A stretch of 50,152 nt of DNA, taken from assembly GCA_013519935.1 (NCBI GenBank), contig JACDUA010000029.1, forward strand, positions 1-50,152, in the 5' to 3' direction. This document shows positions 7,462 through 29,126 of this stretch, in pieces; positions within the stretch are counted from its first letter, which is position 1, and the number at the start of each line of letters is the position of its first letter. Below the pieces are notes generated by a model. That model did no database searches. It was not told where the DNA came from and was given only the letters and a program-made list of their open reading frames with translations. Origin of the DNA: Ectothiorhodospiraceae bacterium WFHF3C12. GTDB taxonomy: Bacteria; Pseudomonadota; Gammaproteobacteria; Nitrococcales; Nitrococcaceae. The translations under genes and the position numbers were made by a program.

Positions 7462-10005
7462 TTAAGTTTCACTGGACCCGTTTCGTCGTATGAGCTCTTC
7501 CACTACTTCGTTCAAAGTCAGCGTCCGCACACTGGACTCGCCAACTGTCACCTCGAAGCGATAACCACCGATGTAGCGGATTAGGCAGCGTCCAACCCGA
7601 AACCATGCTCGCCCTCGAATGGCGCTGTTACCGCTTGGCCGTGGCGGCACGGCCATGAGCTCAAGCTCCAAGCCCGCGGCACGAATGGCTTCGTAGAGCG
7701 CCCACTCGGCTGCGCTCTCTAGCAGCAGCTCCGTCACGTTGGTGGCTCGCAGCAATGCCAGACGGGAGGTCCAGCGGTTGGTCGAGAATCTTTGAACGGA
7801 GCCATCGACGGAGCGATTCGAGATCAACCTTGGAAGTGGCTGCACAGGCCCCAGGCGGTAGTGCACTTGCAGTTCGTCTTGGCTTCGCCGTGCAGGCCAG
7901 GGCGTTCGTATGCGCTTGCGGGGGAGGACCTCGATCTCCTCCACTTCCGCCCAGTGGGTCACCGCTCCGGGGGCATCTCCGTCCGTGGCTTGCCCTGGCA
8001 TATAGAAAGCAACCGCCTTTGCTCGGAGCTGCCGTGGTTGAGAAGGGGTGAGACGGGTGTAGTAACGCCGTTCCCGCTCAATCCATTCCAAGTGCGTGGC
8101 TTCCTCGCCGCCGCGAAGTACACCTACCAGGACCGGCTCTTCGCTGCTGCGCTGCCATTGCGCCCTTCGAACTTCAGCCGCGTGTGGCGTGACGGCATCC
8201 GCGATGGTCCAGCCACAACGCAGAAGGACTTCGCGCAGCCACTGATGTACCCAGCCGGTAGAGCCGGGCAGGAAGGGCAGCGCGCCGATGCCTAGCCGCT
8301 TCAATGAACCCCAGAGCCTGGTCTCGTCGAAACGCTCCGCCTGATCGGCGGTCAGCGGATATAGTGCGGCACCCTCAACAACGGTTCGCTTGCTTCGGCC
8401 CGTTCCCTCGGCGGAGGAAACATCTTCGCCGTCTCGGGATTCCAGAATCGCATCACGGTACCGGTGAAGTACGTTGATCGCGTCGGGTGGCGGACTCGGG
8501 GCGCCGAACCGGTCAACAAAGTCGGGATCCGTTTCTACGCGGTATTTGGCGTCGAGCACCAGGCGGACGGTGGGCCAATGTGGGTCGGAGAACGTAAGCA
8601 CGAAGTCCGGCTGCTGCGGAAGCAGCGCGTCCGCCTCCAGAAACGTGGGGTTATACGTCACCTCCAAGTTGCGTCCGCCGGGCAAGGCGAACGGCACAGA
8701 CTGCGTTCTTCCCCGTTCCAGGCGCATCCGCAGTCCATCGCCGCGGACCTCCAGGAGTTTGTCGGCCGGAATGGGAACGCCGAGCACCCCCGATACCAAC
8801 CGCAGCAGCGCCAGGAAGCACCAGTACTCATACAACAGATGCACGTCTTTGACGGACAGTTCGACCGGGCCGCCGCGGATACTCAAGCCTTGGCGTAGTA
8901 TGGTCAGGTTCCGGTATGCCTCCTTGTACCCGGGTGCTCCCTGTAGCTGGAGCGAGGCAAAGCCGGAGGGTGGCGCGCCTTCGGCCGCGGCCATGCATTC
9001 CAGCCGTTCCAGGCCGGTGACACGCTTCTCCAGTTGCTCAAGCTCGGCAAGTGCTTGCGCGTCACGCGCCGAAGTCTGGCCGCGAGCTCCTGGCCTGCGG
9101 GATGCAGACTGTCGTCGCCGCTCCTCCAGCGCGATGTGCGCCAACTCCTGTCGGACGCGTTGCAGCTGTAACGCCAACCATCGGTGCTCAGGGGTGTCCA
9201 AGGTCGGCGTGGGCCTTAGCTCAGGCAGTCGGCGCCGTACGGATAATCCGTTCTTCGTGGCAATTGCCGGGCCCTGGCCGCGACCGGCACGTACCGCTTG
9301 CCGCAGCCGAGCGTCCGAACGGCGCAGTGCCTCGGCGCGCACCATGCGATGCTCTCGTCGCAGGCCGCGAATGGGGTGGCGATCAATCTGGCGCATGGCC
9401 GGTTCAAGATCGCCCAGCACGTGCCGAAGTAGGGCGATCCATTCAAGCCGGGAGCTTCGTCGTTCTCCGGAGGTGCTCGCCAGATGATACGTCGCGCGCA
9501 GGTGCTCCAGGGCCAGGCCGGCCGCCAGCGCATGCACCTCGCCTAACATCGCCGTGTAGTCCGCTTGATAGTCGATCTTGGACGGGAAGACCTCTACTTC
9601 CAGGTCCAGCTCCGGACGGCCATCGACAAGGATAGTGAACCGGCTCAGGCCGACCTGGCTCCGAAAGTTCAGACTACCGTGAGCAGAGACCTGCCCATGT
9701 TCATAGTGGATGTTGCCAAGCAGCAACGGATCGCGATGACGTAGCTCAACGGCCGCACCATCACGGCCGACGAGAGCGAGCTGGTAGGTTGTCTCCTCGA
9801 ATAGAGCAGGCCCCGCTTCCTGGGCGAGGTCCAGCGCCGCCTCGTCAGGTACGCCAGCCCTTTGGGTTCCGTCCAGGAGCGTCAGGCCCGGTCTCAGCGC
9901 GGCTATGCGTACGTGACCGTTAGCGTCTTGAGGGCCCGATAGCGATTGCGGCGCATACCAGGTGAACGACACGCGTTCCGTCTTGATGCACAGCAGCGCA
10001 GTCAC
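7462..10005 (-). CDS. McrC-like DUF2357 restriction nuclease
   Basis: An 847-residue protein paired with the McrB-like GTPase gene. The N-terminal two thirds resemble the DUF2357 region found in large McrC-type proteins. A PD-(D/E)XK core follows: QPDFVLTF with Asp467, then LVLDAKYRVE with Asp485 and Lys487, the same DAKY motif as McrC-type nucleases. Unlike compact E. coli McrC (about 350 residues), this is the long form. The GTG at 10005 lies 4 bases after the mcrB-like stop and has no clear ribosome site, so it is probably translated by coupling. It likely acts as the nuclease subunit of a modification-dependent restriction complex; the DNA modification recognised is not readable here. Confidence 0.8.
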   Translation of the reverse strand: MTALLCIKTERVSFTWYAPQSLSGPQDANGHVRIAALRPGLTLLDGTQRAGVPDEAALDLAQEAGPALFEETTYQLALVGRDGAAVELRHRDPLLLGNIHYEHGQVSAHGSLNFRSQVGLSRFTILVDGRPELDLEVEVFPSKIDYQADYTAMLGEVHALAAGLALEHLRATYHLASTSGERRSSRLEWIALLRHVLGDLEPAMRQIDRHPIRGLRREHRMVRAEALRRSDARLRQAVRAGRGQGPAIATKNGLSVRRRLPELRPTPTLDTPEHRWLALQLQRVRQELAHIALEERRRQSASRRPGARGQTSARDAQALAELEQLEKRVTGLERLECMAAAEGAPPSGFASLQLQGAPGYKEAYRNLTILRQGLSIRGGPVELSVKDVHLLYEYWCFLALLRLVSGVLGVPIPADKLLEVRGDGLRMRLERGRTQSVPFALPGGRNLEVTYNPTFLEADALLPQQPDFVLTFSDPHWPTVRLVLDAKYRVETDPDFVDRFGAPSPPPDAINVLHRYRDAILESRDGEDVSSAEGTGRSKRTVVEGAALYPLTADQAERFDETRLWGSLKRLGIGALPFLPGSTGWVHQWLREVLLRCGWTIADAVTPHAAEVRRAQWQRSSEEPVLVGVLRGGEEATHLEWIERERRYYTRLTPSQPRQLRAKAVAFYMPGQATDGDAPGAVTHWAEVEEIEVLPRKRIRTPWPARRSQDELQVHYRLGPVQPLPRLISNRSVDGSVQRFSTNRWTSRLALLRATNVTELLLESAAEWALYEAIRAAGLELELMAVPPRPSGNSAIRGRAWFRVGRCLIRYIGGYRFEVTVGESSVRTLTLNEVVEELIRRNGSSET

Positions 10006-10009
10006 GCGG

Positions 10010-11869
10010 TCACAGCCAGTATGAGGTGAAACCTTCCGTCAGCAACCGATCCCACATGAGGCAGGTTCGTGCCGCCATGCCAGGATAGCGCGCACCGGCC
10101 AAGCGATCCGGTCGTCCGGCCTCCTCCCACTGTTCCAGGGCCTGTCTCGCCTCCTCCTCACGGCGATATGCCACGCCGCTGACGGACCAACCAAGCAGAC
10201 CCAGCAGAACGCGCTGAATGCTGCCACTCCCGCCGGCGATTCGGGGCAGTATCTTCATTTGCAAGGCAAGGTCGAGCGGATCAACCGGTGATTCATCGGC
10301 GGTCTGGAAAAAGGGGCGAATCTCCTCCGCATGCAGTACGAAAAGCGCCACCTCATCTCTCGTGCGGTAGCCAACCTGTAGCTGCGCGGCGGCGAGTATG
10401 TGGTTAAGCTCAACAAGCGTATCGACCGCGCCTTGGACCAACTGCCGTTCCGCCGGCGTCAGCCCCGTCAGCTCCGAAAGGCGAATCGCCCGCGGCCGCC
10501 ACGCAGAGACGGGCCACGCTATGGGCTGCCCCGCATCGGCCGTGGCAGGCTCTTCCCAGCGGTCCAACGCCACTTCCGATAGCTCCAATGTAAATGCGCG
10601 GTCTAGGACCTTGCGGCTGAAGCCGTGCGCGCTCTCGTCCATGTTGACCGTGCCCACCAACGCAAGATTGTCAGGTAGGCAGACCTTGCCCCACTCGGCA
10701 TCCTTCTCCGCTAGCGCGGCCTGGATGAGCGGCGAGCTCGCGTAACCGCCATCATCGGTGGGGGAACGGTCTTCAATACGGCTCAACACCTCCGCGAAGT
10801 AGTGCTCAACCCGGGCCAGGTTCATTTCATCAATGACGCATACCCGATAGACATCGTCTTCATCCATCGCCGTATGCGCCACTTCCAACAGGGCGCCGGG
10901 CCGAAAGGTCCCTTGCAGATCCGTATAGCCGAGCACTTCCGCGCTATCCGTCCAGTCCGGGCGGACGGGGATCAACTCCGACTGGCCCCCAGTGAACTCG
11001 GCGACCAACCTGGGCAGCCTTGACTTCCCCGTTCCGGTAATGCCCGCGAGGATAACGAACGGTTTTGTCCGGATCGCAGCCACATATTGGGCCAACTGCC
11101 ACGGCTGGAAGACGAAGCCAGTTGCGCGTATCGCGTTCCAAAGCGCTGTCATGCCAGCCACAGGATCAAACTGGCCGTCCGGCGCCGCTGAAGGCGTTGT
11201 GCCCGCGCTGTCCTGCACTGTCGAATCAGTCGTCGTGACCTCTTTGAACGCCCGCGGAAGCTCTGAATTCATGTAGCGCTCATACGTCTCAAGAAGTACC
11301 TCGAGATCCCCGAAGAGCACCTCGTCAGACGGTACGTGGCCCTTTTCGTAGAGGCGATACGCGACGGTGGACGCTTCGTACTGCTTGCCCAGGTTCGACT
11401 CCGTACGCAAGTCGATGTGGCCATCGGTGCGGAAAGTCGTGCTGTTATTCGGTAGCAAGCGCTGCAACTGCTCCGCGCGCCTGCGTAAGATCGCCCTTCC
11501 TTCACGGGTACCGTGCCGGTTGCGGAGATCAGTTACGCCCTGATTGAATGTCAGATAGACCCCGCTCATGTCCTCCCGAAAGAGGAAGACCACATAGACG
11601 CCATGCTGCGTGGTCGTGGTCTCACGCCGGTCCAGCAAGGCCACCCATGGTACCCGTGCCCAGTTCCCCTGACCCACGGACCAGCCGACTTTCACGTTGT
11701 GGTACTGCTGAATCACGGGATGGTGCTCGATAATGCGCTGCAGCTCCTCAAACCGCCTCCAGATGGCGTGCTCCTTCCCGAAGGGCGCGTGTTTCCTGGC
11801 ATCAGCGTAGTCGGAGAGGATGGATTCCAGGTAGCTGGCGAGGGTTGGCTGCGATTCGGACACCGCCAT
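10010..11869 (-). CDS. McrB-like AAA+ GTPase with MrcB_N (DUF3578) domain
   Basis: A 619-residue protein. Residues 10-200 resemble the MrcB N-terminal (DUF3578) domain, including WARVPWVALLD and GVYVVFLFREDMSGVYLTFN. An AAA+ domain follows, with Walker A GITGTGKS at 276-283, Walker B CVIDEMN at 344-350 and TVNMDES at 407-413, the McrB version of the GTP-binding signature. McrB rings bind DNA and, when GTP is hydrolysed with McrC stimulation, drive long-range DNA cleavage. The N-terminal domain sets target recognition and differs from the E. coli DUF3578-free version. First gene of a two-gene operon on the minus strand. Confidence 0.85.
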   Translation of the reverse strand: MAVSESQPTLASYLESILSDYADARKHAPFGKEHAIWRRFEELQRIIEHHPVIQQYHNVKVGWSVGQGNWARVPWVALLDRRETTTTQHGVYVVFLFREDMSGVYLTFNQGVTDLRNRHGTREGRAILRRRAEQLQRLLPNNSTTFRTDGHIDLRTESNLGKQYEASTVAYRLYEKGHVPSDEVLFGDLEVLLETYERYMNSELPRAFKEVTTTDSTVQDSAGTTPSAAPDGQFDPVAGMTALWNAIRATGFVFQPWQLAQYVAAIRTKPFVILAGITGTGKSRLPRLVAEFTGGQSELIPVRPDWTDSAEVLGYTDLQGTFRPGALLEVAHTAMDEDDVYRVCVIDEMNLARVEHYFAEVLSRIEDRSPTDDGGYASSPLIQAALAEKDAEWGKVCLPDNLALVGTVNMDESAHGFSRKVLDRAFTLELSEVALDRWEEPATADAGQPIAWPVSAWRPRAIRLSELTGLTPAERQLVQGAVDTLVELNHILAAAQLQVGYRTRDEVALFVLHAEEIRPFFQTADESPVDPLDLALQMKILPRIAGGSGSIQRVLLGLLGWSVSGVAYRREEEARQALEQWEEAGRPDRLAGARYPGMAARTCLMWDRLLTEGFTSYWL

Positions 11870-13952: not shown

Positions 13953-15632
13953 ATGGCCGACGCCTATTCTACGAACGCGCGCCACTATTTCGACGAGTAC
14001 TGGAGGCTGCGCTTCGACTCCGTCCATGGTGACTGGCTTCATCACCTGCCGGAGCAGCCCGGTTTTGCCCTGGATGCCGGCGCCGGAGGCGGTCGGGACG
14101 CCGCGGCTCTATCCGAGAAAGGGTGGGAGGTCCTGGCGGTGGAGCCGGCGGATGGGCTCCGGCAATTGGGTGAAGAGGCCACTTCAGGGCACGACGTTCA
14201 GTGGGTGAACGATCGACTGCCTGAATTGGGTCGCGTCCGCACCCTCAGTTATCGCTTCAACCTGATCCTGGTCTCCGCGGTCTGGATGCATGTCCCACCG
14301 GCGCAGCGGGACCGTGCATTTCGCATCCTAACCGAACTGCTGGCGCCGGGCGGGTTGCTGGTAATCACCCTGCGTCATGGGCCCAGCGCTGACGAGCGAG
14401 TTTTCCACGAGACCAGCCGTGATGAGCTGGAGGCCCTGGCCCGTCGGCGGGCACTGGTTACCCTTCAGGCGGCCGGGCAGGCGGATCAGCTCGGTCGGGA
14501 TGAAGTGTCTTGGGAGACGCTGGTCTTCCGGTTGCCGGATGACGGTACGGGCTCGTTGCCGCTGCTGCGCCATATCATCGTGAATGACAGCATGTCCTCC
14601 ACGTACAAGCTGGGTCTTCTCCGGGCGGTCACGCGGATCGCTGACAGCGTTCCCGGTATGGTCCTCAGGCGTTCCGATGACTGGGTGGACATACCCCTGG
14701 GGCTGGTAGGGCTCTACTGGATCAAGCTCTACCAGCCTTTGATCCTGCGTCATCAGCTGCGGCAGCTGCCGGGCAGTGCCAATTATGGTTTCGCCAAGGA
14801 CGACTTTTACCGGTTGGCGGATGTCTCGCCGCTGGACCTCCGGGTGGGTCAGCCGCTCTCCGGGGAATTTGCGGCGACCGTGCTGCGGGCGATACGCGAC
14901 GCCTGCCGGACCATCGTCCAGATGCCAGCGCACTACATCACCTATCCGGGCAGCAATCGGTCGGTTTTCGACGCCAGCCCGGCCCGCACGACGATCCGGC
15001 CGGGCCCGGTCATGCTCGGGCGGGAGACGCTGGCCCGCTTCGGCACCTTCCGGGTGCCCGCGTTGCTGTGGGATTGCTGCAGCCGGTACGCCTGCTGGCT
15101 GGAGCCGGCCATCGTCAATGAATGGGCGGAGCTGATGCAGAGCTACCAGGTCCGCTACGCCGACCATGGCTTCCGTGATGCCCTGCAATGGGAGGAAGGC
15201 CGACGGGACACCAGCCGTGTCCGCGCAATGGTGGAAGAGCTGATCGACCGGCGGGAAGACGTGAAGTGTGTATGGACCAGCCGGGCACTGACGCGCCGAG
15301 GATATGACATCGACCATTGTTTCCCGTGGTCGCGCTGGAGCAACAACGATCTTTGGAATCTGATGCCGGCCACCACACTGGCCAACGCCAGGAAAGGGGA
15401 GAAACTGCCCGCCGCGACGTTGCTGCATGATGCGCGCGAGCGGATCCTGCACTGGTGGGAGGAAGGCTTCGTGGGCACCGCGCGGGAAGAGCAGTTCTTC
15501 ACTGAAGCCGAGGCCGCGCTGCCGATGGTTGGTGGCAGTCGCAAGCCGGAAGCCGTGTTCGAGGGCGTAGTACACCAGCGCATGCGGCTGAAGATGAACC
15601 AGCAGCTGGCGGAGTGGTTCGGGCTTGAATGA
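13953..15632 (+). CDS. SAM methyltransferase-HNH nuclease fusion
   Basis: A 559-residue protein. Residues 1-160 are a class I methyltransferase: motif I FALDAGAGGGRD (38-49), an acidic turn AVEPADG, and APGGLLVITLRHGP in the post-motif region. Residues 180-420 have no recognisable domain. The C-terminus holds an HNH nuclease: YDIDHCFPWSRWSNNDLWNL with Asp454-His455, then ANARKGEKLP. The HNH arrangement (DH...WNL.P...N..K...LP) is intact. First gene of a three-gene operon: its stop overlaps a possible ATG of the next gene, and the preferred GTG start lies 53 bases on. The methyltransferase fold is closer to small-molecule or protein methylases than to DNA methylases, since no DPPY-type motif is seen. 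Whether it protects host DNA is therefore uncertain. Confidence 0.72.
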   Translation: MADAYSTNARHYFDEYWRLRFDSVHGDWLHHLPEQPGFALDAGAGGGRDAAALSEKGWEVLAVEPADGLRQLGEEATSGHDVQWVNDRLPELGRVRTLSYRFNLILVSAVWMHVPPAQRDRAFRILTELLAPGGLLVITLRHGPSADERVFHETSRDELEALARRRALVTLQAAGQADQLGRDEVSWETLVFRLPDDGTGSLPLLRHIIVNDSMSSTYKLGLLRAVTRIADSVPGMVLRRSDDWVDIPLGLVGLYWIKLYQPLILRHQLRQLPGSANYGFAKDDFYRLADVSPLDLRVGQPLSGEFAATVLRAIRDACRTIVQMPAHYITYPGSNRSVFDASPARTTIRPGPVMLGRETLARFGTFRVPALLWDCCSRYACWLEPAIVNEWAELMQSYQVRYADHGFRDALQWEEGRRDTSRVRAMVEELIDRREDVKCVWTSRALTRRGYDIDHCFPWSRWSNNDLWNLMPATTLANARKGEKLPAATLLHDARERILHWWEEGFVGTAREEQFFTEAEAALPMVGGSRKPEAVFEGVVHQRMRLKMNQQLAEWFGLE

Positions 15633-15685
15633 GTCAACCATGCCGCTCCGGAGCCGTGTGCGGACGACAAGTTGCGGAGGCGCTT

Positions 15686-16051
15686 GTGGCAGAACAATCT
15701 GAGCCGGACCGTCTGGCTGAAATACGCCAGCGACTGAATACCTTCGTACGGGACCGAGACTGGGAGCAGTTCCAGTCTCCGAAGAACCTGGTCATGGCCC
15801 TGACCGGCGAACTGGGTGAGCTGGCCGAGCACTTCCAGTGGCTGACGAGTGAGCAATCCCGGGCCCTGGACGAAGACCGGCTCAATGAGGTCTGTGACGA
15901 GGTTGCCGACGTTCAGATCTATGTGCTGCTGCTGACCGAGCGGCTGGGGATCGATCTCCTTGACGCGGTGGAGCGCAAGATCGACAAGAATGAGCAGAAG
16001 TACCCGGTGGAGCTTGCGCACGGTAACGCCAGGAAGTACACCGACCTTTAG
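15686..16051 (+). CDS. MazG-like nucleotide pyrophosphohydrolase
   Basis: A 121-residue all-alpha NTP-PPase. Motifs: SPKNLVMALTGELGELAEHF with the E-x2-E-x2-E metal ligands, FQWLT, and EVCDEVADVQIYVLLL with the E-x3-D pair. These enzymes hydrolyse (d)NTPs to NMP and pyrophosphate. The GTG at 15686 is preferred over ATG 15629 because GGAGG sits 5 bases upstream and the product then matches the family length. The longer start would add 19 residues rich in Cys and Arg. It lies 18 bases before the helicase gene. In a defence operon it could deplete nucleotides or clean up modified ones, which is inference. Confidence 0.82.
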   Translation: MAEQSEPDRLAEIRQRLNTFVRDRDWEQFQSPKNLVMALTGELGELAEHFQWLTSEQSRALDEDRLNEVCDEVADVQIYVLLLTERLGIDLLDAVERKIDKNEQKYPVELAHGNARKYTDL

Positions 16052-16069: not shown

Positions 16070-18463
16070 ATGCTGATCTACACCGCGGATAAGCGGGATT
16101 TTGTGCGCCACGTGGCAGGTAACGAGATCGAGGACCGCATCCTAGAGCGGATGCGATCCAGTGGTCAGGGCCGCGTTTCGGCGAATGAAGTAGCGTCCTG
16201 GCGCAACTCCATGCAGTACATGATGAATGTGCTGAATCAGGCGGATATTCCGGACGATGCCGGCGTCGCCATCGAGTACACCATTCCCCAGACATCCAAG
16301 CGGATCGACTTCGTCCTCACCGGCCGGAACGCCGATGACCGGGATACGGCTGTGATCGTGGAGCTCAAGCAGTGGACCGACGTCACTGCGACCGGCAAGG
16401 ACGCCATAGTGCGCACGTTCATCGGCGGTTCCGAACGGGAGGTGACTCACCCCTCCTATCAGGCGTGGACCTACGCGGCCCTACTTGCGGATTTCAACGA
16501 GACCGTCCGGACCGATGACATCTCACTAAGGCCCTGCGCCTACCTGCACAACTGCACGTCGGATGCGGTGACGTCGGACTTCTATCGCGAGCACCTGGAC
16601 TTAGCCCCGGCTTTCCTCAGGCGGGATGCCGACAAGCTAACGCGGTTCATCCAGCAGCACGTACGCCGCGGCGACCGGTCACAAATCATGTACCGGATCG
16701 AGCACGGTCGTATCCGCCCTTCGAAGTCACTCGCCGATCATCTGGCTTCTCTACTTGAAGGCAATCAGGAGTTTCTGATGATCGATGATCAGAAACTTGC
16801 CTTCGAACTCGCCTTGGAGGTGTCCGAACTTGCCGAAGCCGGGGACAGACAGGTTCTGATCATTGAGGGTGGGCCAGGGACGGGCAAATCTGTTGTGGCC
16901 ATCAACCTGCTGGTCGAGCTCATAAATCGTGATCGCGTGGCGCATTACGTGACGCGCAACGCGGCGCCGAGGGAGGTTTACAAGCACAAGCTCACCGGCA
17001 CCATCAAGCGCACCCGCATCGACAATCTGTTCAAGGGGTCGGGCGCCTACCACTCCGTTGAGCCGGATTCTTTTGACGTGCTGGTCGTCGATGAGGCCCA
17101 TCGGCTGAACGAGAAGTCCGGCATGTTCCGGAACCAGGGCGAGAACCAGATCAAGGAGATCATCGAGGCGGCGCGGGCTAGCGTCTTCTTCCTGGACGAG
17201 GATCAGCGTGTTACCTGGCAGGACATCGGGTCACGCGAGGAGGTCGAGGCCTGGGCGCGCCGGATCGGAGCGACTGTGCAATACGCGACGCTGCGCTCGC
17301 AGTTCCGCTGCAACGGTTCGGACGGCTATCTGGCGTGGCTGGACAACGCGCTGCAGATCCGGGAAACAGCGAACCAGAGTGCCGCCGACCTCGAATATTC
17401 CATCGAGGTCGTGGATTCCCCCGCGACGCTTCGCGACCGGGTATTCGACCTTAATGTGGAAGCCAACCGTGCAAGGCTGCTCGCGGGCTACTGCTGGGAC
17501 TGGGTGAGCAAGAAGAAAGACCCCGACGCGATGGATATCCGGTTCCCCGAGCATGACTTTGCCATGCAGTGGAACCTCGATACGGATGGGATGCTGTGGC
17601 TGGTGCAGCCGAATTCCGTGCATCAGGTCGGATGCATCCATACCTGCCAGGGCCTGGAGCTGGACTACGTGGGCGTGATTATCGGGCCGGACTTGGTCGT
17701 GCGGGACGGCAAGGTGGTGACTCGGGCAACAGAACGTTCAGGGATGGACTCTTCGATAAAGGGATTCAAGAAGGCCCGCAAACAGAACGCGGCAGAGGCG
17801 GATGCAAAGGCCGATGCGATCATCAAGAATACCTATCGCACGCTGCTGAGCCGCGGCTTGAAGGGCTGCGTGGTCTGGTGCACCGATCCGGAAACTAACG
17901 AGTACTTCACCCACTTGGTAGGGCAGGAAACTGATCAGCCAGAGGGCGCAGGCGCACCGCCGTTTCGAATCGTGCCACACGACGAGGTCCTGCCGTTCGT
18001 CAACGCGATACCTTTGGTGAACCTCAAAATTGCGGCCGGCACCTTCAGTGAAGAACAGCACTTCGATAATTGCGAGTGGATAGAGCCGCCGGAAGGCCAT
18101 AGTCCCGAGGAGGGAATGTTTGTCGCGCAGGTTGTCGGGGAGTCCATGAACCGGCGTATTCCCAGCGGCGCCTGGTGCCTCTTCCGGAAGCCGCCCGGGG
18201 GATCGAGGGAGGGACGCATACTGCTCGTGCAGCACCGCGACATCCAGGATCAGGATGGCAACGGAAACCTGACCGTCAAGCGGTACTACAGTGAGAAACG
18301 CGAGGACCCGGATACGGGGTGGCGGCACGCACGCATCGTTCTGAACCCGGATTCAGACGACCCCGGTTACCGTCCCATCGTCCTTGAAGAGGACTCCACG
18401 GATGAGTTTCGCGTGATTGGCGAGCTAATGGAGGTTCTTGCCCCTTCCAGAGTGGGCAGGTAA
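16070..18463 (+). CDS. Nuclease-DUF2075 helicase with LexA/UmuD-like C-terminus
   Basis: A 797-residue three-part protein. The N-terminus has a PD-(D/E)XK-like pattern: RIDFVLTG with Asp80, then VIVELKQW with Glu98 and Lys100. The centre is a DUF2075 (Schlafen-like) helicase/ATPase: Walker A EGGPGTGKS with Lys273, Walker B VLVVDEAHRL with Asp341, and CQGLELDYVGVIIG as a late helicase motif. The C-terminus resembles S24 peptidases: KIAAGTFSEEQHFDN with Ala656-Gly657, VVGESMNRRIPSGAWCLF with Ser692, and LTVKRYYSEK with Lys737. The Ala-to-Ser spacing is 36, against 35 in LexA and 36 in UmuD. Self-cleavage is inferred, not shown. Last gene of the operon, with a 14-base gap to a convergent gene. 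Confidence 0.8.
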   Translation: MLIYTADKRDFVRHVAGNEIEDRILERMRSSGQGRVSANEVASWRNSMQYMMNVLNQADIPDDAGVAIEYTIPQTSKRIDFVLTGRNADDRDTAVIVELKQWTDVTATGKDAIVRTFIGGSEREVTHPSYQAWTYAALLADFNETVRTDDISLRPCAYLHNCTSDAVTSDFYREHLDLAPAFLRRDADKLTRFIQQHVRRGDRSQIMYRIEHGRIRPSKSLADHLASLLEGNQEFLMIDDQKLAFELALEVSELAEAGDRQVLIIEGGPGTGKSVVAINLLVELINRDRVAHYVTRNAAPREVYKHKLTGTIKRTRIDNLFKGSGAYHSVEPDSFDVLVVDEAHRLNEKSGMFRNQGENQIKEIIEAARASVFFLDEDQRVTWQDIGSREEVEAWARRIGATVQYATLRSQFRCNGSDGYLAWLDNALQIRETANQSAADLEYSIEVVDSPATLRDRVFDLNVEANRARLLAGYCWDWVSKKKDPDAMDIRFPEHDFAMQWNLDTDGMLWLVQPNSVHQVGCIHTCQGLELDYVGVIIGPDLVVRDGKVVTRATERSGMDSSIKGFKKARKQNAAEADAKADAIIKNTYRTLLSRGLKGCVVWCTDPETNEYFTHLVGQETDQPEGAGAPPFRIVPHDEVLPFVNAIPLVNLKIAAGTFSEEQHFDNCEWIEPPEGHSPEEGMFVAQVVGESMNRRIPSGAWCLFRKPPGGSREGRILLVQHRDIQDQDGNGNLTVKRYYSEKREDPDTGWRHARIVLNPDSDDPGYRPIVLEEDSTDEFRVIGELMEVLAPSRVGR

Positions 18464-19620: not shown

Positions 19621-19879
19621 ATATGTCCTCGAGTTCGGTATCGACCCAATGATGCGCAGCTCCCGACAAACCTAGCTTCGTTGTTTGTGACGTGCCACTC
19701 AGGCCTGCAGCAGAGTAGTCCGGCCGCATTGTGTCGCGCCAGTGCTCTAACCCCGCGACGGCTCAAATTTCCCGATGATCGCCGGAGCAATCTGAGTCAC
19801 CCCACCAACCTGAAATCCCACCGAAACAGTGGCAGGATTGGGTCATTAAGTCAGAAGCCACCAACGGACGGTGATTACC
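19621..19879. other. Intergenic region between divergent genes
   Basis: 259 bases between the PD-(D/E)XK gene (minus strand) and the nucleotidyltransferase-HEPN gene (plus strand). It holds a CCAC/GTGG short dyad near 19818-19833. No gene and no chromosomal palindromic module are visible. It is a plausible right edge of the acquired island. Confidence 0.4.
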
Positions 19880-20788
19880 ATGGAGCAGAAGGCCCCGGGA
19901 TTGGCCTATCAGGCGTACATGCGCACGGACCTTTCCTATCTCCCCGAGCACAAGCGCGAAGAGCTTGCCTGGATCGTGGACATGATCCGCGAGCACGCGG
20001 ACGTGGAGTTGATCGTGCTGTTCGGCAGCTATGCCCGGGACGAGTGGGTGGAGGACCGTTATGTGGAGGACGGCGTCACCTACGAGTACCTGAGCGACTA
20101 CGACCTGATGGTCGTGCTGGACCTGAAGCACGAGAACGGCCGGGGCGAGAAGTGGCGGGCCGTGGAGCAGCGCATCCGCCGGCACCCCGGAATCAAGACA
20201 CCGGTGACGTTGCTCACCGAGGGCAGCGAGCACCTCAACCGGGAGCTGGAGCGGGGGCAGTACTTCTACACGGACGTTATCAGGGAGGGCGTGCTGCTCT
20301 TCGACGCCGGGCGGATGACGCTGGGGGAGCCGAGGGTGCTGGATGCCGGTGAGCGGGCCGAGGTGGCGCACGGGCATTTCAGCTATTGGTACCGAAAGGG
20401 CGAGCAGGCCATCCGGGGCTTTCGCATGTATTTCGAAGAAGGCGTGCACGACGACGCCGCTTTTCTGCTCCACCAGGCGACAGAGCGTTTCTATTTCGCC
20501 CTGATCCTCGTCTTCACCGACTATAAGCCCAAGACCCACGACATCGAAAAACTACACAGCCAGGCGGCCATGTGGGTGCCGGAACTGGTGCGATTGTTCC
20601 CGCGGGCCACGAAGTTCGAAGAGCAGGCCTTCAAGCGGTTGAAACAGGCCTACATCGATGCCCGCTTCGACAAGGAGTACGCCATCACCCGCGAGGAGCT
20701 GAACTGGCTCGCGGGGCAGGTGGAGCGGTTGAAGGCGGTGACGGAGGACGCGTGCCGGGCCCGGCTGGCGCACTTGCGGGCGAGCTGA
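19880..20788 (+). CDS. Nucleotidyltransferase-HEPN domain protein
   Basis: A 302-residue fusion. Residues 30-125 form a polymerase-beta-like nucleotidyltransferase: LIVLFGSYARDEW with Gly49-Ser50, and LSDYDLMVVL with Asp73 and Asp75. Residues 165-290 form a HEPN domain: DDAAFLLHQATERFYFALIL then VFTDYKPKTHDIEKLHSQ, and YIDARFDKEYAITREEL. Separate proteins of these types form antitoxin-toxin pairs; here both are on one chain, as in many stand-alone MNT-HEPN proteins. A short extension upstream (MIT from 19871) is possible, but ATG 19880 fits better. Function may be a self-controlled RNase or a nucleotide-transfer enzyme. Confidence 0.82.
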   Translation: MEQKAPGLAYQAYMRTDLSYLPEHKREELAWIVDMIREHADVELIVLFGSYARDEWVEDRYVEDGVTYEYLSDYDLMVVLDLKHENGRGEKWRAVEQRIRRHPGIKTPVTLLTEGSEHLNRELERGQYFYTDVIREGVLLFDAGRMTLGEPRVLDAGERAEVAHGHFSYWYRKGEQAIRGFRMYFEEGVHDDAAFLLHQATERFYFALILVFTDYKPKTHDIEKLHSQAAMWVPELVRLFPRATKFEEQAFKRLKQAYIDARFDKEYAITREELNWLAGQVERLKAVTEDACRARLAHLRAS

Positions 20789-25355: not shown

Positions 25356-25380
25356 TCGTTTGCGGCGGCGAGGAGAAGGT

Positions 25381-25705
25381 TGCGGGAGCGGCGGTCCCGC
25401 CGCGATGGCCATGCCGAAACCATCGCCGCGGGGGCGCGCCTCCCACAGCCCTTCGGCCGGCCGCGGGGCATAGTCGCAGTTGTGGGAGCGGCGACCCCGC
25501 CGCGATGGCCATGCCGAAACCATCGCCGCGGGGACGCGCCTCCCACAGCCCTTCGGCCGGCCGCGGGGCATAGTCGCAGTTTTGGGAGCGGCGACCCCGC
25601 CGCGATGGCCATGCCGAAACCGTCGCCGCGCGGACGCGCCTCCCACAGCTCGCCGGATACCGCGTGGCTGGCAGCCAGTTGTGGGAGGGGCGTCCTCGCC
25701 GCGAT
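25381..25705. repeat. Tandem array with a 100-base period
   Basis: Three units of exactly 100 bases (anchors ATGCCGAAAC at 25411, 25511 and 25611). Each contains GTGGGAGCGGCGACCCCGCC, a short ATGGCCATGCCGAAACC linker, CGCCGCGGGGACGCGCCTCC and a CCTTCGGCCGGCCGCGG stem. A final GTGGGAGGGGCGTCCTCGCC element ends the array near 25705. The unit can fold into a long GTGGGAG/CTCCCAC hairpin. Related units lie at 29.26-29.43 and 30.58-30.72 kb. The stretch 25706-25883 has no recognisable element. Confidence 0.85.
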
Positions 25706-25883
25706 TGGGTTTCCTCCTGTCCCTTCAAGGGAATGGCGTTTTTCTTTTGCGGCAATCGGCGGTGTGTGGATGGGGCGCGCACTTTCTCGGGCCGCGCCCG
25801 TCTTTGTTTCCGTAGTGACGCCTGGCGGGTGAGAATAGGTGCTTTCCTCACGTCTCATGGGTCTCCAGGCAGGAATTACCGCC

Positions 25884-28800
25884 GTGTCCGACGATTTCAG
25901 CCAGTTCAGCCTGTTCGACCGCCCGGAGGATGTGGTTGCCGAGATTGGCGGGGCCGGCTGGCCGAGCCCGGAGTCGTTGCCGCATAACGCCGGCGCCCAT
26001 CGGGTTTCGAAGCAGCTTCTGCGGGACCTGCGTGGGTCGGAGGCGCCTTTGCTGGTGGTCGGTTATGCCTCGCTGGACCGGCTGGTGGACTTCCTGGCGG
26101 AAGCACCGCGTCCGGGACGGCATGTGCGGATCCTTTTCGGTGCCGAGCCCTTTCCCAGCCGCGAGCTCTCCTTTCCCTATCGCGGTGGATTTCCCGAGGA
26201 GGTGCGCCGGTACTGGGCGCGTCAAGGGGTCTCGCTGCGGCTTTGCGGCGCGATTGTCGCGGTGCTGGAGCGGTTGGCCGCCGGTGAGATCGAGGCGCGC
26301 TACATCGACGGTACCCGCCTGCACGCCAAGCTCTACTGCACCGAGGCTGCCGTTACGCTGGGGTCCAGCAACTTCACCGAGGGCGGGCTGAGCCGCAACC
26401 TGGAGGCGAATGCGCGGTTCACCCCGAACGAGCGGCGTTTCCGCGAGGGCTGGCAGCTCGCGGAGCGCTACTGGTCCAGGGCGAGGGATTACGGCGACGA
26501 GCTGAAGCGGCTGCTGGAGGAGCTGCTGCAGTTCGTGGACTGGCGTGAAGCGCTGGTGCGGGCCAGCGTGGAGTTGCTCGAGGGGGAATGGGCGGATCGT
26601 TATCTGCGCATGCAGGGCTACGATGGCGACCTCCCGCTCTGGCCGAGCCAGCGCCAGGGCATCGCCCGGGCGCTATGGCTCATCCGCAACGTGGGCAGCG
26701 TTCTGGTCTCCGACGCGACCGGTTCCGGGAAGACGCGCATGGGCGCGCACCTGGTGCGCGCCGTGATGGACCGGATCTGGGCCCATCAGCGCATCCGTAA
26801 GGGTCAGCCGCTGCTGGTCTGCCCGCCGGCGGTGCAGGATATCTGGAAGGATGAGGCGCGGCAGTGCCTGCTTCCGCTGCTCACAGAGTCCCACGGTCAG
26901 CTCAGCCGTGGCGGGGCCGACAGCGGCTCCACCATTCAGGACCAGATCCGTCGTGCGCAGGTGCTGGCGGTGGATGAGGCGCACAACTTTCTCAATTCTC
27001 GCTCGCGGCGTACTCGGGCGCTGCTGAGCAACATGGCCGACCACACCATCCTGTTCACCGCCACGCCCATCAACCGCAGTCTGCAGGACCTGCTGCGACT
27101 GGTGGATATGCTGGGCGCGGATAACCTGGATCCCGACACCCTGCGGCGGTTCGAGCGGATGCTCCGGCGCGACAGCCTGGATCGCAGCCTTTCCCAGGAA
27201 GAACTGGCGCTGCTGCGTGAGGAGATACGGCGCTTCACCGTGCGCCGGACCAAGGCCGAGCTCAACCACATGATCGACGCCGACCCGGACGCCTACCGCA
27301 ACGCGCGAGGCGAGCGTTGCCGCTACCCGGAGCACGTCTCGCGGCTGTACGCCCTGGAAGAGGACGACGACGACCGTCGCCGCGCCAGCGAGATCCGCTC
27401 GTTGACGGAGCAGCTCCACGGGATGGCCTATCTGCACCGGCCGATCCAGATGCCCCCGGTACTGCGCAGCGAAGGCTGGACGGAGGAGAAGTACCTGGCC
27501 TCTAGGCTGACGGCGGCCAGGAAACTACCGGCCTATGTCGTCATGGCTGCCCTGCGCTCCAGCCGGGCGGCGTTGGTCGAGCACGTGCGGGGGACCGACT
27601 ACGCCTCAGAGGAGTTTGCCCTGGCGGAGCATCTGCACAAGGCGGCCACCGGCAATGTGCTGGAGACGCTGTCGAACATCGCCGGACAGCCGCCCGAGAA
27701 CCAGCTGGGCATTGATCTGCCGGATTGGTTGACGGACCCTGCCGAGCATCGCGCCGCCTGCCAATCCGACCAACGGATCTATGAGCGCATCGAGGCGTTG
27801 GCCGCCGGGATGTCCGGCGGCCGGGAAGAGCGCAAGGCCCGGTTCCTGGCGGACTGCCTGTCGCGCGACGAGCTGGTCATTGCCTTCGACAGTCGCCCTA
27901 TCACGTTGGCCTTCATGCAGCGCCAGCTGCGCGCCGCGGGTATCACCCAGACGCTACTCGCGACGGGTAGCGAAGCGCGCGGGCGGGACGAGGTGAACCG
28001 GCGCTTCCGGCTCGGATCCACCGACCGCGGGATAATCGCGCTGTGTTCGGACAGCATGGCGGAGGGCATCAACCTGCAGCAGGCCGGTTGTATGGTGCAT
28101 CTGGACATGCCCAGCGTCGTGCGGGTCGCGGAGCAGCGGGTGGGGCGCGTTGATCGCATGGACAGCCCCCACGAGAGCATCGACGTATGGTGGCCGAAGG
28201 ATGCGCCGGAGTTCGCGCTGCGTGCGGACGAGCGTTTCATTGAGCGTTACGAGACGGTGGACGCGTTGCTGGGGGCGAACATGCCGCTGCCGGAGGGTAT
28301 GGTGCCGGCGCGGGACCGGGCCGTGGAGGCCGCCGAGCAGATGGAGCGGATCGAGGCTTCGCTGAACGCCGAGGAGAGCTGGGACGGCATCGAGGATGCA
28401 TTCTCCCAGGTGCGGCGGCTGGTCAGCGGGCCGCGGGCGCTGGTGGCGCCCGGGGAGTACGAGGCATTCCGCAGCGAAGAGCGGCGCGTGGCCTCGCGGG
28501 TGTGTCTGGTGCGCAGCGAAAAGCCCTGGGCTTTCTTCTGCCTGGCGGGTCTGGAGGACCAGGCCCCCAACTGGCTGCTGTTTCCGCAACGCGGCGGCAA
28601 GCCGGTGACGGATCTCAGCCGTGTGGCGGACTCGCTGCGCGAGGCACTGGAGACGGAACCGGACACCGTCGGGTTCGACGAATCCACCGCAGGGTGGCTG
28701 CGGCATTTCGTCGACCGCCTGCCGGAGGCCCAGCGCCTGATGCTGCCACGCAAGAAGCAGAAGGCGCTGGAGGAGATGGAGCGGGTCATGGAGGTTTACC

Positions 28801-29126
28801 GGCGGGAGGCCTCGGCCAGTCAGAGTCAGGCGGGCGTCGACTTCTGCGAGCGGCTGCTGAATGTGCTCCGGCGCCCGGATCCCGATGCGCCGCCGGACTG
28901 GGACGCCTTGGCGGAGACCTGGCTGGATCTGATCCGGCCCGTCTGGTACCGCAAGCTCACCCGGGGACGCCGACGTCGTCCGCTGTTGCTGCGCGATCTG
29001 CGCAGCGACCTTACCGGGGCCGACCGGATACCGCTGGACCGGGTCATGGCAGCCTTCGAGGGGCTGGGGACGCTGCCGGCGCTGGAGCGGCGTGTCCAGG
29101 CGGCCATCGTGGGGGTGCCCGCGTAG
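25884..29126 (+). CDS. PLD-nuclease/SNF2-type helicase
   Basis: A 1080-residue protein. Residues 40-200 resemble a phospholipase-D-type nuclease with one HKD-like motif: RLHAKLYC (His147, Lys149) and TLGSSNFTEGGLSRN. A superfamily 2 helicase of the SNF2 type follows: ATGSGKTRMG with Lys283, VDEAHNF with Asp364, LFTATPIN, and late motifs MAEGINLQQAG and QRVGRVDRM. About 300 residues of unassigned C-terminus complete it. PLD plus SNF2 helicases occur in defence systems (for example in DISARM-like contexts), but no partner genes are seen. The GTG at 25884 is preferred because AGGAA lies about 8 bases upstream; in-frame ATG 25857 and GTG 25839 are alternatives. Confidence 0.8.
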   Translation: MSDDFSQFSLFDRPEDVVAEIGGAGWPSPESLPHNAGAHRVSKQLLRDLRGSEAPLLVVGYASLDRLVDFLAEAPRPGRHVRILFGAEPFPSRELSFPYRGGFPEEVRRYWARQGVSLRLCGAIVAVLERLAAGEIEARYIDGTRLHAKLYCTEAAVTLGSSNFTEGGLSRNLEANARFTPNERRFREGWQLAERYWSRARDYGDELKRLLEELLQFVDWREALVRASVELLEGEWADRYLRMQGYDGDLPLWPSQRQGIARALWLIRNVGSVLVSDATGSGKTRMGAHLVRAVMDRIWAHQRIRKGQPLLVCPPAVQDIWKDEARQCLLPLLTESHGQLSRGGADSGSTIQDQIRRAQVLAVDEAHNFLNSRSRRTRALLSNMADHTILFTATPINRSLQDLLRLVDMLGADNLDPDTLRRFERMLRRDSLDRSLSQEELALLREEIRRFTVRRTKAELNHMIDADPDAYRNARGERCRYPEHVSRLYALEEDDDDRRRASEIRSLTEQLHGMAYLHRPIQMPPVLRSEGWTEEKYLASRLTAARKLPAYVVMAALRSSRAALVEHVRGTDYASEEFALAEHLHKAATGNVLETLSNIAGQPPENQLGIDLPDWLTDPAEHRAACQSDQRIYERIEALAAGMSGGREERKARFLADCLSRDELVIAFDSRPITLAFMQRQLRAAGITQTLLATGSEARGRDEVNRRFRLGSTDRGIIALCSDSMAEGINLQQAGCMVHLDMPSVVRVAEQRVGRVDRMDSPHESIDVWWPKDAPEFALRADERFIERYETVDALLGANMPLPEGMVPARDRAVEAAEQMERIEASLNAEESWDGIEDAFSQVRRLVSGPRALVAPGEYEAFRSEERRVASRVCLVRSEKPWAFFCLAGLEDQAPNWLLFPQRGGKPVTDLSRVADSLREALETEPDTVGFDESTAGWLRHFVDRLPEAQRLMLPRKKQKALEEMERVMEVYRREASASQSQAGVDFCERLLNVLRRPDPDAPPDWDALAETWLDLIRPVWYRKLTRGRRRRPLLLRDLRSDLTGADRIPLDRVMAAFEGLGTLPALERRVQAAIVGVPA

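Follow-up and report, generated by a model that had tools for sequence, protein, structure and literature searches.

A LexA-type S24 domain at the end of a predicted defence nuclease-helicase: a candidate self-cleaving switch also fused to restriction enzymes

Self-cleavage by S24 domains controls repressors and a polymerase subunit, and the locus described here raises the question of what such a domain may be doing at the C-terminus of a large predicted nuclease-helicase. The locus lies in a stretch of 50,152 nt from Ectothiorhodospiraceae bacterium WFHF3C12 (contig JACDUA010000029.1 of assembly GCA_013519935.1, positions 1 to 50,152, forward strand), and this whole stretch is referred to below as the window. 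A preceding sequence-only reading had proposed a LexA/UmuD-like self-cleavage site in a helicase encoded there, and the places it gave for Ala656-Gly657, Ser692 and Lys737 were confirmed by translation of 16070-18463. The gene and its parts are as follows:

16070..18463, + strand: nuclease-helicase-S24 protein of 797 amino acids (aa), from the open reading frame and its translation, with near full-length homologues at 56-57% identity
16070..16669, + strand: predicted PD-(D/E)XK nuclease domain, N-terminal, approximately residues 1-200, from the invariant D80, E98-x-K100 and Q131xxxY135 and a structure model
16847..17887, + strand: SLFN-g3 helicase (PF09848, formerly DUF2075), residues 260-606, Pfam 2.6e-104
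18011..18427, + strand: Peptidase_S24 domain, residues 648-786, Pfam 4.7e-7 (C-terminal piece), LexA fold with Z 11.7
18035..18040, + strand: predicted scissile bond Ala656-Gly657 (A656 at 18035-18037, G657 at 18038-18040) in the motif AAGxFSxxQ, from conservation
18143..18145, + strand: predicted catalytic Ser692 in the motif VxGESMN, 81/81 in a scan seeded with this motif and 9/9 in homologues reached via the nuclease domain
18278..18280, + strand: predicted catalytic Lys737 in the motif TVKxY, 81/81 and outside the scan patterns

The first point to settle is whether the C-terminal part is an S24 domain at all. Its match to Peptidase_S24 in Pfam scored 30.0 bits against a cut-off of 23.3 (E 4.7e-7 for the C-terminal piece and 4.8e-6 for the whole protein), and an AlphaFold2 model of residues 619-797, built with 53 aligned sequences, had a mean predicted local distance difference test score (pLDDT) of 82.5 and a predicted template modelling score of 0.79, the predicted cleavage loop (model residues 36-44, corresponding to 654-662 of the window protein) forming a low-confidence stretch within it. 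The top solved structure for this model in Foldseek was LexA of T. maritima (E 5.1e-5), and LexA also came first in VIA-align (1jhh, Z 11.7, root-mean-square deviation 3.0, 122 aligned), where rows 1-30 were all LexA, lambda, 186 or lambda-186 hybrid repressors, or UmuD/UmuD' (among them a lambda-type repressor, 8gmu, with Z 10.6 and UmuD' with Z 9.4), followed by Raf1 (Z 6.1) and signal peptidases (Z 5.9 and lower). The proposed LexA/UmuD-like domain therefore has the S24 fold, with Pfam above its cut-off and LexA first in both structural searches, so the objection that such a fold might be lacking falls away, and it is virtually certain that the C-terminal 140-150 or so residues are a real S24 domain. 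A chance resemblance of the motifs, in favour of which no point was found, has a negligible probability and can be regarded as ruled out by the Pfam score, the LexA-type fold and the conservation described below. Membership in LexA proper was also rejected, the N-terminal part being a nuclease and an SLFN-g3 helicase with no repressor DNA-binding domain, as was membership in UmuD proper, the open reading frame being one of 797 aa with a C-terminal S24 and not a free-standing small protein.

With regard to the rest of the protein, the match to PF09848 reached 349.7 bits (curated cut-off 24), and E69, D80, E98-x-K100 and Q131xxxY135 in the N-terminal 200 or so residues were invariant in alignments A3 and A4. 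The model of this domain (pLDDT 86.6) had Can2 (Z 8.7), Cdn1 (8.3) and VC1899 (8.2) as its top structural matches, and lower in the ranking came Card1, NucC, Shedu and numerous restriction enzymes; the best Z of 8.7 is middling, and we take most of these structures to be of the PD-(D/E)XK class, as we take the nuclease motifs to be correctly named. This region thus combines the D...(D/E)xK residues with a modelled restriction-like fold, as expected of a PD-(D/E)XK nuclease.

Conservation of the site and of the putative dyad was assessed in a collection of one genome per species (84,980 species), scanned with the S24 alignment. This gave 399 relatives, 80 of which were read and which together with the window make up the 81 domains counted here; 51 of the 80 loci, the window and L012 form alignment A2. 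A656, S692 and K737 were present in 81/81 domains, A655 and G657 in 80/81. Since the scan was seeded with the Ser motif and with one AAG pattern for the Ala-Gly site, the conservation of both is biased, the Lys lying outside the patterns; this AAG pattern is absent from 77 of the 81 domains, and Ala-Gly was still present in 76 of these. Homologues were also obtained through the nuclease domain with a profile (A4) that is free of S24 but built from S24-bearing loci, and these searches are no exact measure of S24 frequency. Among 341 genomes of one order they gave 18 places in 16 genomes, namely nine frames of 796-831 aa with S24, eight of 623-677 aa without it and one 128-aa fragment, and among 78 genomes of another class a single match, S24-bearing and identical to L032 in the helicase tree. 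Some of these genes were already in the set of 80 (L182 is identical to L032 and L167 to L079 in the helicase tree). AAG, GESM and T-[VI]-K were kept in 9/9 S24-bearing homologues from the 341 genomes, one of which is L010, and nothing therefore points to decay into a domain of purely structural use. The Ala-Gly pair, on whose conservation the sequence-only reading depended, accordingly held in 80/81 genome-scan domains and in 9/9 nuclease-domain finds. The L010 gene had no DNA-level match among E. coli genomes.

The spacings in the window protein proved to be of unequal value. The Ala-Ser distance of 36 is as had been read, but it varies between 35 and 48 across the family, is no family constant and was dropped as evidence. 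The Ser-Lys distance of 45, previously set against 37 in LexA and UmuD, is a genuinely longer gap and a family trait, being 44-46 in 81/81, as compared with 37-38 in LexA/UmuD-type controls (30 loci, 28 of which were parsed by the pattern, with a few P2 letters possibly out of register); the family therefore has its own insert before the Lys. Conservation peaks at AAGxFSxxQ between variable flanking columns, in a loop which the model leaves flexible. Judging from their conservation, both the Ser692-Lys737 pair and the Ala/Cys-Gly bond upstream of the Ser fit peptidase family S24, and we consider it very probable that the domain is able to cut itself. S24 is also the dimerisation domain of LexA and cI, and it might serve for dimerisation or RecA docking alone and stay uncut, but without catalysis one would not expect Lys737 to be kept in 81/81 domains and Ala-Gly in 80/81, in rows labelled with nine phyla, which makes this alternative improbable.

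A second line of evidence concerns the distribution of the domain. S24-less homologues terminate directly after the helicase (at 639 aa in L011), and no S24 match was found in the DNA examined for 21/21 S24-less loci (L144, L145 and 19 others). In a helicase tree built from 88 rows, of which 70 carry S24 and 18 do not, 11 changes of the S24 label are needed, at least 8 of them forced by well-supported branches; this tree comes from a quick search, with long branches flagged, S24-bearing rows over-sampled and 22 of the 80 loci excluded (other architectures, truncated, near-copies). As far as these sequences allow it to be judged, the S24 domain is an add-on that has been gained or lost at least 8 times. 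The S24-bearing rows are labelled with nine phyla (Pseudomonadota, Thermodesulfobacteriota, Verrucomicrobiota, Myxococcota, Acidobacteriota, Nitrospirota, Kiritimatiellota, Krumholzibacteriota and Bacteroidota), and metagenome bins account for many of these rows. Such repeated gain and loss on otherwise similar proteins speaks against an essential maturation step, in which a constitutive, RecA-independent self-cut after synthesis would serve folding or assembly; LexA-type domains can self-cleave at high pH without RecA, and the site and dyad are conserved, but the idea is as improbable as that of an uncut docking domain.

The same domain was recognised, by genome scan and alignment, at the C-terminus of seven restriction and DEAD fusions, and it is also present in proteins with another nuclease-like domain:

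L030 and L045 (whole), L076 and L091 (on truncated contigs): type I HsdR with C-terminal S24
L066, and L077 with RE_endonuc: ResIII-type protein with C-terminal S24
L065 (truncated): DEAD/MZB helicase with C-terminal S24
L090 (above the GIY-YIG Pfam cut-off), L089 (slightly below it) and L012 (by eye): GIY-YIG, SLFN-g3 helicase and S24

Identity to the window S24 is 47-57% in the seven restriction and DEAD fusions and 39-46% in the GIY-YIG proteins, and the site and dyad motifs are alike across all architectures examined, except for the Gly in L076. HsdM and HsdS are encoded beside L030 and N6_N4 DNA methylases beside L066 and L077, neighbourhoods which resemble those of type I and type III systems. 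In L012, L089 and L090 a GIY-YIG-like domain takes the place of PD-(D/E)XK, with the S24 and a neighbouring MazG gene kept, and the nuclease slot before the helicase looks interchangeable. A mainly phage or plasmid home for the family was ruled out, there being a single plasmid record with S24 at E 1e-8, namely a frame-split Halomonas copy, and on viral contigs four distant S24 domains and three nuclease relatives without S24. In Halomonas sp. PA16-9 (L013, 7920-10390) the copy is split across two frames at the helicase/S24 junction.

What cleavage would accomplish is a separate question. When LexA is cut, its N-fragment exposes a latent signal at its C-terminus and is destroyed by ClpXP. In the reading that we favour, the C-terminal S24 would be a LexA/cI-type self-cleaving control module added to a defence nuclease-helicase: RecA filaments on single-stranded DNA, arising from DNA damage, recombination or incoming DNA, would stimulate Ser692/Lys737 to cut Ala656-Gly657 in cis, and the 656-residue nuclease-helicase set free in this way would have -Ile-Ala-Ala as its last residues, a C-terminus like that of the LexA N-fragment recognised by ClpXP. 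The cleaved nuclease-helicase may then be destroyed and the enzyme thereby switched off, this being the less certain step. The outcome would be a built-in restriction alleviation, sparing host DNA under repair, which would explain the presence of the same module on HsdR and type III Res motors. Triggering by RecA appears probable to us, and an off-switch by degradation is proposed only tentatively.

RecA, LexA-type proteins and ClpX are all encoded in the same genome. Ala at P2 is kept in 80/81 domains, although other residues occur there in parsed S24 domains (His and Arg in L119 and L122, which are UmuD-like by motif, Lys and Ser in the viral L095 and L097), and an -AA end was found in none of the 18 S24-less homologues whose C-termini were read. 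According to the parts consulted of the papers concerned, type I restriction is suppressed following DNA damage (PMC3874165), HsdR of types IA and IB is degraded by ClpXP during damage repair (PMC12707154), and a degron in EcoKI HsdR was sought and not found (PMC4231737).

The main rival to the favoured off-switch is an on-switch, in which S24 would keep the enzyme inactive or dimeric until a RecA-triggered cut frees the active form, damage or infection thus arming it. UmuD provides a case of activation by S24 cleavage, and the 656-aa N-fragment is close in length to natural, presumably active S24-less homologues (639 aa in L011; 623-677 aa). However, in LexA and the lambda repressor, where a functional N-terminal domain is likewise followed by a C-terminal S24, cleavage ends function; the conserved -AA end would be left without a role; and HsdR seems to need no release, ordinary HsdR working inside the HsdM/HsdS complex. 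Arming by cleavage is therefore rather unlikely in our judgement, though it is to be taken more seriously than the other alternatives.

Several points weigh against a RecA-controlled off-switch or against parts of it. Without a model, comparing the sequence profile with solved structures gave only weak matches, for the most part to LexA and at best with E 0.12. Of the seven restriction and DEAD fusions, only L030 has an S24 part above the Pfam cut-off, with 19.4-22.8 versus 23.3 in L045, L065, L066, L076 and L077 and L091 unreported by Pfam, and in the HsdR-type L076 the Gly is replaced at the site, which reads Ala-Ser instead of Ala-Gly. No E. coli-type LexA box, by its familiar consensus, was found between 10 and 32 kb, and the window holds 9 one-mismatch sites of this type versus 12.5 expected; this count and the lack of a site near the operon rule out an E. 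coli-type SOS box driving it. S24-less homologues of about 620-640 aa are complete enzymes, and the 656-aa N-fragment could therefore equally be active. P2 Ala occurs in 23/28 parsed LexA-type controls of the class, and the -AA may therefore be mere inheritance from a LexA-like ancestor. Phage infection raising RecA filaments would disable a defence of this kind, which looks costly. Finally, EcoKI restriction alleviation is stated, in the part consulted of PMC11109961, not to be an SOS function, and the analogy with it therefore transfers only in part.

The gene immediately upstream raises the further question of whether the domain acts together with a partner:

15629..16051 (predicted start), + strand: MazG-like nucleotide pyrophosphohydrolase, Pfam MazG-like 3.4e-17, 18 bases upstream of the nuclease-helicase gene

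A MazG relative is found in 60/80 related loci, mostly immediately upstream and on the same strand, three of the 60 matches being 0.9-1.5 kb distant (L035, L044 and L093). It was not found in the other 20/80, seven of which are the restriction/DEAD fusions (L030, L045, L065, L066, L076, L077 and L091), while L014, L023, L049, L052, L084 and L086 lack it despite more than 1 kb of upstream flank and L021, L038, L039, L041, L085, L088 and L092 are short, truncated or broken loci. MazG also lies beside S24-less forms in Gammaproteobacteria, an archaeon, Priestia, Marivirga and a Microcystis phage; among S24-less plasmid and phage loci it accompanies L139, L140, L142 and L143 and is absent beside L137, L138 and L141, and in the nuclease-search loci it was counted in 5/10 S24-less versus 7/9 S24-bearing cases. 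MazG as an S24-specific partner is thereby ruled out, and the operon link suggested earlier stands in so far as MazG is a recurrent partner but not as a specific one. Since MazG occurs with both forms, it seems to make up the basic unit together with the nuclease-helicase, the S24 domain looking like an optional controller. Three S24-less nuclease-helicase copies (L176, L178 and L181) occur in a single genome, G881, none with MazG in the stretch examined.

These data also bear on the possibility that S24 cuts in trans, acting on a different target, for instance LexA, a repressor or MazG. Fragments of LexA are able to cut in trans, but the cis site is conserved in every architecture examined, bar the HsdR-type L076, and MazG, the recurrent neighbour that was searched for, is also found beside some S24-less forms; cutting in trans is very improbable as the role of the domain.

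The wider neighbourhood looks like a defence island, with McrB/McrC-like genes, HNH proteins, a nucleotidyltransferase-HEPN protein and a PLD-SNF2 helicase:

7462-11866, - strand: MrcB_N-AAA_5 protein with an adjoining DUF2357-PDDEXK_7 protein, a McrBC-like restriction pair
13953-15632, + strand: methyltransferase domain fused to an HNH_4 nuclease domain, 559 aa
18478-19620, - strand: match to the PADLOC candidate PDC-S11 (2e-10), convergent with the S24 gene
19871-20788, + strand: nucleotidyltransferase fused to a HEPN domain in a single protein
25839-29126, + strand: PLD-SNF2 helicase, 1095 aa, DpdE/DrmD-like below curated cut-offs

As a rule, MNT and HEPN are encoded by two different genes of a toxin-antitoxin system. 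At 25380-25830, overlapping open reading frames with repeated blocks of peptide, seen by eye, suggest a DNA repeat array between two genes.

As to novelty, no description of S24 fused to a helicase, HsdR or Res was found in the literature (open-licence papers, which is not proof of absence), and "S24" does not occur in the consulted parts of the main text of the restriction reviews PMC12707154 and PMC3874165, nor in those of PMC5512222 and PMC12255303. The S24 switch itself has been described before, though apparently not on restriction and defence motors, and it appears to be wired directly into such motors on contigs labelled with at least nine phyla. On balance, we lean towards regarding the LexA-type self-cleaving domain as a portable safety module that has been joined repeatedly to defence enzymes which translocate DNA and are unrelated to one another (SLFN-g3 nuclease-helicases, HsdR, Res and DEAD/MZB), through which the RecA filament would directly destroy or arm the enzyme rather than the repressor of its gene, this constituting a post-translational SOS branch for immunity. 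If true, this would account for the silencing (or arming) of such enzymes at times of host DNA breakage and repair, and natural HsdR-S24 fusions would be a case of evolution supplying a degron of the kind which, according to the consulted part of PMC4231737, was sought in EcoKI HsdR and not found.

In comparison with known systems, the PADLOC models (2023) PDC-S41 (2e-18, best stretch residues 20-305), AbiO (7.2e-12) and Nhi (8e-11) match the N-terminal and helicase parts of the window protein; no PADLOC model matched the S24 part at E 0.1 (0 families) and none covers nuclease, helicase and S24 together. With LexA the protein shares the S24 fold (Z 11.7), a cleavage site of the [VI]AAG type, the Ser-Lys dyad and the C-terminal position, the difference being that LexA has a repressor DNA-binding head where the window protein has a nuclease-helicase, and that the Ser-Lys distance is 37-38 in LexA-type controls and 44-46 in the fusion family. 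UmuD has in common the S24 fold (UmuD' Z 9.4) and a small residue followed by Gly at the cut, but it is a small free-standing polymerase subunit, whereas the S24 of the window is the C-terminal module of an enzyme of about 800 aa; P2 is His and Arg in the two UmuD-like controls and Ala in the fusion family. A lambda-type repressor likewise has the S24 fold (8gmu, Z 10.6) in C-terminal position and differs in its helix-turn-helix head. We know of no self-cleaving domain in EcoKI HsdR. The proposed switch would share with EcoKI alleviation by ClpXP the damage-linked loss of a restriction motor subunit, as far as the consulted parts of the sources describe it (PMC3874165, PMC12707154, PMC4231737, PMC11109961).

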